From NCBI GenBank assembly GCA_022827275.1, contig JAJDTG010000020.1:1-64000 (forward strand): a stretch of 64,000 nt of DNA, given 5' to 3'. This DNA comes from Candidatus Dadabacteria bacterium. GTDB taxonomy: Bacteria > Desulfobacterota_D > UBA1144 > Nemesobacterales > Nemesobacteraceae. The position numbers and the translations under genes were made by a program. Below the pieces are notes generated by a model that saw only the letters and a list, made by a program, of their open reading frames with translations, was not told the DNA's origin and made no database searches. Within the stretch, counting starts at the first letter, position 1, and every line of letters starts with the position of its first letter. Below, piece after piece: positions 41,527-43,724 of the stretch.

Positions 41527-41660
41527 GGAAAAATTTTGGGGATTATCCGGTTAACTAGCCAAAAGTTTCTGCACTTTTTAGACTAACTTCCTGTAATTGT
41601 TAGTAAATTAAATTTATCCACGGGTTGTGAAAATTTTTTTAGATAACACCGTGGCTTTAT

Positions 41661-42059
41661 TCATGGATTAGGATTAGCAATAAAGCGAGCACCCCTTGCT
41701 ATTTCCAAAGCCAAAAGCTTTCTTGCATCTTTACTAGATGGCCAGCCTTTAATATTGGCATGATTGGGATTGTCTGCTGTTGGATCGGCTACAACATCTA
41801 ACGATTGTGAAATCACGTGAGAAACTTCCACATCAGCCCTACCATGAAGCTTTCTATTTTGCTGCCCAGAAACAATTTCATTTCCGATACCCCAAATTTC
41901 ATTTTCGGAAAGATTTAAATGGCGGGTAGTTGATAATTCCAGAGGGTCTTCCGGCGGAATGAAAGCATCTTGTTTGACGGTTTGGTCTTTTTTACGATAC
42001 CACCTCGAAGAAGTAATATATCTGGCTAAAAGCTCTTCATGTAATATAGAATCCGTCAT
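41661..42059 (-). CDS. Uncharacterised third protein of the TIGR04255 cassette
   Basis: 132 residues. 'ARYITSSRWYRKKDQTVKQDAFIPPEDPLELSTTRHLNLSENEIWGIGNEI' is the core and resembles an uncharacterised family I have seen in bacterial genomes next to TIGR04255 proteins. That link is recollection and needs checking. The rest is soluble, with 'RADVEVSHVISQSLDVVADPTADNPNHANIKGWPS' and a C-terminal helix. Its ATG overlaps the previous stop (ATGA). No function known. It is the last gene of a three-gene minus operon in an AT-rich island. Confidence 0.75.
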   Translation of the reverse strand: MTDSILHEELLARYITSSRWYRKKDQTVKQDAFIPPEDPLELSTTRHLNLSENEIWGIGNEIVSGQQNRKLHGRADVEVSHVISQSLDVVADPTADNPNHANIKGWPSSKDARKLLALEIARGARFIANPNP

Positions 42060-42565
42060 ACATTTTCGCTTGTAACATTTTCGATCAGCTTTACTAGATC
42101 TTCTGAAACTTCAAACAAAGCAAAACCATCTCCATGTCTTCGTTCTCCACCAATTATAGCAGCAAAATAAAGCCGCCCTCCAGGGTTAATGCTAATTGAT
42201 ATCACTCTGGAAGGAGACCTATACCATTCCAGAGTGATTGCTCCGTCCGGCTCAGCACCTATTTCCGGTGATTCGATGCCCAAGGGAAAAGACCAGAGGA
42301 AGACCCTAGCGTTCCACCAAACCTCTCTTGTTACTGGTTTCGCTCTCTCTCCATCCCAGCCCCCTAAGGAACATTCTTCAAGGGTTTTTTGCAACTCCTG
42401 AAGAGTGCCTCTACCAATAAAACTTAAGGCCTTAGATTTATGTAAATGACTAGATACTTTTTTTCTTTCTTGGTCTATGTAACGTGCCGCGGAAACATAC
42501 TGATCAGAAGAACCCTGATCTGCATAACCCGAAATACCAGTAAAATTCATTGCGACAGTAGGCAT
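42056..42565 (-). CDS. Uncharacterised second protein of the TIGR04255 cassette
   Basis: About 169 residues. The central 'LGGWDGERAKPVTREVWWNARVFL' and 'PEIGAEPDGAITLEWY' followed by 'VISISINPGGRLYFAAIIGG' form a distinct, conserved-looking core, probably a beta-rich fold. ATG 42565 is preferred over a GTG at 42574 because GAGGAG lies ten bases before it; it then begins two bases after the TIGR04255 stop. No enzyme motif recognised. Translation is coupled at both ends. Confidence 0.75.
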   Translation of the reverse strand: MPTVAMNFTGISGYADQGSSDQYVSAARYIDQERKKVSSHLHKSKALSFIGRGTLQELQKTLEECSLGGWDGERAKPVTREVWWNARVFLWSFPLGIESPEIGAEPDGAITLEWYRSPSRVISISINPGGRLYFAAIIGGERRHGDGFALFEVSEDLVKLIENVTSENV

Positions 42566-42566
42566 G

Positions 42567-43322
42567 TTATTCACACTCCTCTAAAGCCTTCTCAGTTAAA
42601 CTACTAAAGAAAACTTTATTTTTGACCCAACGCATTTTGTTCATATGTTCAGAAATTTGTAATTCATCAAAGCTGAGATGTTTATTCATAGAAACATCTA
42701 TATCCAACAACAGTCCAATATCCATCTGAGTATTTTGAGTAGTTTTTATAATATTAACAAAATAGGGAGTATCCGGAACTTGAATTCTGTCTTGATGTAA
42801 ATATCCAGCTAAAGGCCAGTTCAAACCCTTTATAGATTCTGGTGGACTTTCATAATAATCCGCAAGTTCGATTGCCTGTTGCTTCCTGATCGCTAAGCGA
42901 TTTATGAAACGTAAACCAACTCTTCCAATCTCGATTGGTTTCAACAGTTCGCAGAAAATTTCCCAAAGCCGTAGCGCTTCTTGGCTAAATTTTTCCCAAT
43001 TTTCGTAAGGTTTTAGTCGACTAAAAACAAATGAATCTTTATTAAACTGTACGACATAAAAACTATCTTCTGACTGGCACTTCAAACCAACGTGGACAAG
43101 ATCTTTAATTATATTGGTTCCAGTCTTGGGTGAAAGCTGAACTTCAGTTTCCTGCACCGTGTCATGCTTCGGATAGTCAGGCAATCGTTCTTCCAACTGA
43201 CTCCGTAGACTCAACTCATCCCATTCAACAGAAGAAACAACTCGAAGATCAAGAACGGCCTCAACAATTGGTGCTCGTGGTAAATGAGGAAATTCTTCTT
43301 TTATATTAATAGGGGATTGCAT
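42567..43322 (-). CDS. TIGR04255-family protein
   Basis: 251 residues. The opening 'LPRAPIVEAVLDLRVVSS' and the later 'EIGRVGLRFINRLAI' are hallmarks of TIGR04255, a sporadically distributed protein family without known function. The fold appears beta-rich with amphipathic helices. It is first in a compact three-gene operon, with no ribosome site but a TATAAG-like box about 11 bases before the ATG. Sporadic distribution and the low-GC setting suggest gain by transfer; a defence or stress role is speculation. Confidence 0.8.
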   Translation of the reverse strand: MQSPINIKEEFPHLPRAPIVEAVLDLRVVSSVEWDELSLRSQLEERLPDYPKHDTVQETEVQLSPKTGTNIIKDLVHVGLKCQSEDSFYVVQFNKDSFVFSRLKPYENWEKFSQEALRLWEIFCELLKPIEIGRVGLRFINRLAIRKQQAIELADYYESPPESIKGLNWPLAGYLHQDRIQVPDTPYFVNIIKTTQNTQMDIGLLLDIDVSMNKHLSFDELQISEHMNKMRWVKNKVFFSSLTEKALEECE

Positions 43323-43724
43323 AATTTTTGTTGCTTATATCCCTTATCACTGTCTTAAGTTTCTCCCGCCTCCCCATTTTCCGACAAGGCTTTTTCTAAA
43401 TTGATTCCACCGTCTAAAACCAAATTGGAGCAAAAAACTAAAGAACACTGAGTGGCTCTGCCCGGCTCTGAGCAGATTCAATGGTAAGCGTAAGATTATT
43501 GCCGGTCATAATCTTCCACTTCCTCAACCTTATGTGAAGGAATTTTTTAAGAACCCCGCTTGCGTAGTATCAACTTAACAAAACTCCGTCTTACCCGTTT
43601 CCTAGGAATTCTTAGGAAAATTTAACCTTTATTACTCTAATATAATATTACCGGAGTTCAATATTGACAAGGGGGATTACCTAACTAACTAGATAATCTC
43701 TAAATTTTTAAATTTCTTTGGGAA
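43323..43724. other. AT-rich intergenic region with two inverted repeats
   Basis: No gene found. It holds a hairpin with AAGATTAT (43492-43499) and ATAATCTT (43508-43515) around an 8-base loop. It also holds an imperfect 22-base palindrome centred on GAATTC (43598-43619; one mismatch per arm). A TATAATATT run lies near 43641. The base composition matches the cassette to its left rather than the genes to its right, so this may be one border of a transferred island. Confidence 0.5.

Follow-up and report, generated by a model that had tools for sequence, protein, structure and literature searches.

The window analysed here is a stretch of 64,000 nucleotides (nt) of contig JAJDTG010000020.1 from a 1.77-Mb metagenome-assembled genome (MAG) of Candidatus Dadabacteria (G000). 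It carries a compact minus-strand cassette of three genes headed by a TIGR04255 family protein. We refer to these as genes 1 to 3 and to their products and homologues as P1, P2, and P3.

42567..43322, minus strand: gene 1 (P1), TIGR04255 family protein of 251 amino acids (aa), duplicated TATA-binding protein (TBP)-like fold predicted from a homologue model
42056..42565, minus strand: gene 2 (P2), 169 aa, WDG...PDGxI...EW core, candidate antitoxin or adaptor, weak similarity to the C-terminal region of PDC-M32A, fused to P1 in locus L040
41661..42059, minus strand: gene 3 (P3), 132 aa, candidate effector with an ADP-ribosyltransferase (ART)-like predicted fold, R13, P35, L87, and H100 invariant and S43 near-invariant, weak match to PDC-M32B

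The sequence confirmed the layout given in a preliminary description of the window, in which three minus-strand genes of 251, about 169, and 132 aa were said to be joined by a one-base gap and a four-base overlap. The gene 1/gene 2 junction reads TAA-C-ATG, and genes 2 and 3 share ATGA. Gene starts here and below are mechanical calls; the mechanical open reading frame (ORF) of gene 2 spans 172 aa via an upstream GTG, and 169 aa are counted from the ATG start. The cassette is also AT-rich as described, with a GC fraction of 0.394–0.425 across 41–44 kb vs ~0.47–0.56 in nearly all other 1-kb windows; as a unit it has 40% GC and the surrounding DNA ~51%.

The assignment of gene 1 to TIGR04255 held with a wide margin over the curated NCBIfam cut-off of 30 bits (115.1 bits, E 4.7e-33, aa 14–249 over profile positions 2–250 of 252). 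Gene 1 had no match to the SecB family in Pfam or NCBIfam, no TBP-family sequence match, and only chance matches among PDB sequences. Genes 2 and 3 had no Pfam or NCBIfam match above cut-off. DUF7886 was considered for gene 3 and rejected, as its score fell under the gathering threshold and divergent P3 homologues did not match it. TIGR04255 was not named in any paper of the literature searched.

Conservation of the three-gene unit

A scan of genome contigs with P3 as the sole query found 39 loci, most of them on MAG contigs, in Nitrospirota, Planctomycetes, Proteobacteria, Chlorobi, Akkermansia, Acidobacteria, Poribacteria, Spirochaetes, and other groups. P2 stood directly before P3 in all 39 and TIGR04255 before P2 in 33, bearing out the earlier suggestion that proteins of these types accompany TIGR04255. 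The other six loci lay at a contig edge (L038, L044), lacked the gene (L033, L037), or had a different gene upstream (L057, L064). Gene order was preserved down to ~30% identity across phyla, and the arrangement is therefore not due to chance. In locus L040, genes 1 and 2 are fused and encode a single 414-aa protein, an argument that P1 and P2 associate physically.

The unit was sporadic rather than housekeeping, again as first proposed: P3 occurred in 6 of 14 genomes of the genus and TIGR04255 in 7 of 14, and the insertion site was empty in congeners. P2 was the least conserved of the three proteins among congeners, at 59–61% identity vs 78–80% for P1 and 85–89% for P3 (L012, L015). Antitoxins and adaptors often diverge fast, and the low conservation of P2 fits such a role. 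Neither gene 2 nor gene 3 was found in plasmids or phages by tblastn or in scans of viral contigs, and the label 'phage-borne' was dropped for the window subfamily for this reason.

The window's own genome held a second cassette on contig 12 (L010:1951-6032), in which DUF6941 replaced TIGR04255 ahead of P2 and P3; a GajA/GajB pair lay 2–3 kb away and a HipA-like gene followed. At the Poribacteria locus L057:1037-2893, TIGR04255 was replaced by a DUF7380/DUF4209 protein with an R....H (HEPN-like) motif ahead of a P2-like gene and P3. Genome G011 had an in-frame TGA in P3 (L005:1501-1893/L014) with P1 and P2 intact, so that the third gene alone was inactivated.

TIGR04255 as a constant first gene

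In the reverse test, TIGR04255 was sought in 274 Gammaproteobacteria genomes and found in 28 (~10%), and 30 loci were read; the family also occurs in many phyla. The genes of these loci were tightly packed. Within this sample the first slot does not vary and slots 2 and 3 are exchangeable, with slot 3 a bona fide toxin family in three loci. These three had a PIN domain (L132, 2596–3012; L140, 2258–3022) or a YhaV toxin (L138, 2636–3088; E 6.8e-46) as the third gene, preceded by TIGR04255 and a short second gene whose product has a hydrophobic stretch. About 10 of the 30 loci carried P2–P3-type partners, some classified by motif only (e.g., L134, L137, L145, L148). Eight had a helix-turn-helix second gene and a third gene of 250–270 aa with an [ST]xxCD[LI]-like motif, four had a different second gene with a similar motif in the third, and two had a pair with a third gene that appeared peptidase-like by eye. 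The third gene of L143 looked HEPN-like by eye only and was negative in Pfam. Several of the alternative gene 2 proteins had a hydrophobic N-terminal segment.

The proposed tie between the genes was thus upheld from one side: most P3 loci had TIGR04255, whereas TIGR04255 was not bound to genes 2 and 3, with only about one third of Gammaproteobacteria loci carrying the pair. Plasmid and phage-labelled records showed the same three-gene layout; TIGR04255 occurred on plasmids, conjugative ones included, and in two Acinetobacter records labelled as phage.

Other architectures were present within the genus of the window. L173 (G013) and L174 (G010) had TIGR04255, a different second gene of 244–265 aa, and a P3-like third gene of 148–149 aa (SVNWLEYY...DPSHSEIVGLP). 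L167 (G002) had TIGR04255 followed by 231-aa and 172-aa genes unlike P2 and P3.

Insertion and mobility

The distance from rpmG to the neighbouring membrane-protein gene was ~86 bp in six congeners (G002, G003, G009, G011, G012, G013) vs 2.2 kb in the window. Empty-site alignment delimited the insertion and its surroundings as follows.

41538..43701, unstranded: inserted segment of 2,164 bp, missing at the same site in six congeners
41538..41558, plus strand: left imperfect terminal inverted repeat, 15/21 match with the right end, AAATTTT left out
43681..43701, minus strand: right imperfect terminal inverted repeat, pairing with the left end
41531..41537, unstranded: direct repeat AAATTTT, left copy, candidate target-site duplication
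43702..43708, unstranded: direct repeat AAATTTT, right copy
43642..43670, minus strand: promoter-like TTGTCA-17-TATTAT, marking one edge of the block shared with the cassettes of congeners
43323..43641, minus strand: leader of ~320 nt that travels with the genes
43598..43619, unstranded: near-perfect 22-bp palindrome TTTCCTAAGAATTCCTAGGAAA, directly downstream of the -10 element, conserved in L012 and L013 only

The empty-site boundaries (41537/43702) coincided with the region's longest inverted repeat (41530–41558/43681–43709) and with the AAATTTT repeats, which are themselves self-complementary. The exact ends of the insertion thus carry terminal inverted repeats and a candidate target-site duplication in the manner of a transposon. 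Beyond the three genes, no gene-like ORF of at least 60 aa, and hence no transposase of its own, was found within 41538–43701. A multi-copy miniature inverted-repeat transposable element was rejected as the source of the repeat, since its only close matches in the genome were the two ends.

The cassette stood at other positions in G004, G010, G011, G012, and G013. The block common to these genomes and the window comprised the promoter-like element (43670–43642), the leader, and the three genes, and was ~78–81% identical throughout. Its closest foreign relatives were in other phyla: the window P1/P2/P3 had 59/56/71% identity to those of an Atribacteria MAG and 58/55/61% to those of a Syntrophaceae MAG, compared with about 32/24–27/35–37% to Dadabacteria of other families. 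These higher identities to other phyla indicate that the cassette was transferred whole. The three genes are a self-contained mobile cassette that moves between bacterial genomes.

The palindrome is a possible autoregulatory operator. It was rejected as a family-wide feature, being shared by the window with only two close relatives and absent from the rest of the family. A small ORF in the leader was likewise rejected as a fourth gene because a stop interrupts it in L012, and Rfam gave no match. The intergenic site itself, between the membrane-protein and L33 genes, held ~1 kb of other DNA in G008 (L088) and ~190–370 bp in G005, G006, and G010, and may be an insertion hotspot.

Defence neighbourhoods

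We scanned the flanking genes of distant loci with PADLOC. About nine of the 34 non-redundant loci included or adjoined restriction-modification (RM), AbiLi-like, or other defence genes. In L060 and L063, the cassette lay between a type III methyltransferase gene (E 0) and a UvrD-like helicase gene sharing 4 nt with the end of P3; the same nesting in L056 was inferred from layout and member count. The cassette of L065 lay between HsdM and HsdS, HsdS or HsdM genes adjoined those of L031, L043, L046, and L048, and that of L055 stood beside an AbiLi-like AAA ATPase and a HEC-05-like gene. By comparison, a control set of modest size, unmatched for contig position (20 stretches, 147 kb, 123 proteins from eight of the same genomes), had no RM or Gabija matches and only scattered candidate or weak ones. 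The enrichment near defence genes that the preliminary description had offered as a check was thereby observed, both in the distant loci and around the second cassette of the window's own genome.

The run at L060:132-9999 resembled an operon of a 282-aa gene, the type III methyltransferase, TIGR04255–P2–P3, the UvrD-like helicase, and an AEP-TOTE primase-helicase (PF22548, E 1.6e-99), the last identified in this locus only. It is possibly an undescribed composite defence system.

Predicted structures

The AlphaFold2 model of P3 was confident (pLDDT 95.7). Among PDB structures, Foldseek ranked Tpt1 and AvrPphF-ORF2 first and second and NarE lower (ART folds at ranks 1, 2, and 37), and a Tpt1-like RNA 2'-phosphotransferase recurred at rank 11 in a viral structure library. 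In the P3 family alignment, R13 (in the first strand), P35, L87, and H100 were invariant and S43 and R46 near-invariant. The model weakly suggests an ART-like fold for P3.

The P1–P2 fusion of L040 was modelled with a pLDDT of 80 and a linker without confidence. The secondary structure of its TIGR04255 part showed a duplicated beta-alpha-beta4-alpha pattern, and Foldseek matched this part to TBP and to the Rep_trans initiator RepDE (E ~2e-4, probability 0.99–1.00); the TBP matches spanned E 2.6e-4 to 9e-4 and probability 0.98–1.00. This suggests a duplicated TBP-like fold for TIGR04255, as seen in the L040 homologue rather than the window protein.

A candidate tripartite conflict cassette

Defence clusters, mobility, and toxin third genes in relatives together argue that the cassette is probably an inducible self-poisoning module, either anti-phage or addictive. 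With moderate confidence, we read the three genes as a mobile tripartite cassette of toxin-antitoxin type that works like CmdTAC. Gene 3 would be the effector, a small ART-like protein (Tpt1/HopF/NarE-like) that modifies nucleic acid or protein and halts growth. P1 and P2 would bind each other and keep P3 inactive, with P2 as a fast-evolving adaptor or antitoxin. TIGR04255 would be the constant partner that stabilises P2 and senses infection, either directly or via a co-encoded restriction or helicase system. Occupation or perturbation of this sensor would release the effector and shut down the infected cell. We infer the toxicity of gene 3, its neutralisation by gene 2, the trigger role of TIGR04255, the target, and the net anti-phage function.

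Several observations weigh against this reading. Pfam found no toxin domain in window gene 3, and the best ART-like match of P3 in PDB was weak (E 0.2, probability 0.63, TM-score 0.43), with no conserved catalytic Glu in the family alignment and hence no canonical triad including Glu/Gln. The hydrophobic N-terminal segment of many alternative gene 2 proteins, a possible chaperone-addiction (ChAD) segment, was not evident in P2. In L010, an IS21-like istAB insertion split P2 and left P3 open, although the insertion also cut P3 off from its promoter. The window cassette itself adjoins ribosomal-protein and housekeeping genes, with no other defence gene adjacent.

We tentatively extend the conflict-cassette reading to the whole family. 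Tripartite conflict systems headed by TIGR04255 might make up a new class, with a TBP-fold sensor or chaperone controlling exchangeable antitoxin–toxin pairs (ART-like, PIN, YhaV, and others); the units would be mobilised without a transposase of their own and inserted into RM operons.

An accessory or guard module of RM systems would also account for the nesting of the cassette, which is flanked by methyltransferase and helicase genes in L056, L060, and L063 and by HsdM and HsdS in L065, and for its translational overlap with the helicase gene. TIGR04255 would then bind DNA or RNA, as the TBP fold does in TBP and Rep_trans (PMC13107129), and P2–P3 would monitor or modulate the RM enzyme and act upon inhibition of restriction, by PrrC-like logic. 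Most copies, including that of the window, have no RM gene in the examined flank and the cassette is mobile by itself, and we consider this explanation unlikely. A purely selfish addiction element, which secures its own maintenance or that of its carrier and makes no net contribution to defence, would account for the sporadic distribution, the transposon-like ends, the TIGR04255 cassettes on conjugative plasmids, and the toxins in the third slot. The enrichment of cassettes in or next to defence operons, with control stretches as the baseline, speaks against this reading and leaves it similarly improbable. It is very unlikely that the cassette belongs to a TOTE-like (TPR, OB, TBP, Effector) system whose divergent TBP component would be TIGR04255: the TBP-like fold and the AEP-TOTE enzyme of L060 point that way, but the cassette includes no TPR or OB gene in the window or at most loci, AEP-TOTE is confined to that one locus, and no TBP-family sequence match was found.

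Should TIGR04255 prove to be the invariable component of a toxin system with three parts, sense could be made of many 'hypothetical' three-gene cassettes, whether chromosomal, plasmid-borne, or within defence islands, and bacterial immunity would be a new role for a TBP-like fold.

Comparison with known systems

TIGR04255 is predicted to share the duplicated beta-alpha-beta4-alpha arrangement of TBP and the Rep_trans initiators, in which the fold binds nucleic acid (PMC13107129), but lacks sequence similarity to them and has its domains arranged otherwise (root-mean-square deviation 10–12 Å, TM-score <0.4). P3 has the ART-fold proteins Tpt1/KptA, HopF/AvrPphF-ORF2, and NarE as its top Foldseek neighbours, but at ~10% identity and a TM-score of ~0.4, and the canonical catalytic Glu was not seen. 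Like TOTE systems, the putative conflict cassette encodes a protein with a predicted TBP fold, and the L060 operon also has an AEP-TOTE enzyme; the cassette differs in having other partner genes and no TPR or OB proteins.

PDC-M32, a computational phage-defence candidate of PADLOC, appears among the annotations of a Sinorhizobium prophage (PMC12429752). P2 resembles the C-terminal part of PDC-M32A, with 61 residues aligned (aa 68–128 to 271–330 of 375; E 4e-4) rather than a near-full-length match, and P3 resembles PDC-M32B over ~80% of the profile (E 0.0057, 15 bits). These scores are far under clear membership, PDC-M32B was above threshold in 0 of 41 related genomes, and gene 1, which encodes TIGR04255 as a protein of its own, did not match PDC-M32A. 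From sequence comparison, the cassette is distantly related to PDC-M32 but falls short of its profiles.

In CmdTAC, a tripartite anti-phage system, phage capsid titrates the chaperone off the antitoxin and frees an mRNA ADP-ribosyltransferase (PMC11618068). In toxin-antitoxin-chaperone (TAC) systems generally, the chaperone/ChAD pair is transferable between toxins (PMC5105189). The constant partner of the window cassette stands first and matches TBP-like folds instead of the SecB family, and membership in TAC fails because this partner is not SecB. The window cassette shares with TAC systems three tightly linked genes, and across TIGR04255 cassettes a constant partner goes with exchangeable third genes that include known toxins. 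With CmdTAC in particular there may be a further parallel in the effector, as CmdT is an ADP-ribosyltransferase and window gene 3 has a weak ART-like predicted fold.
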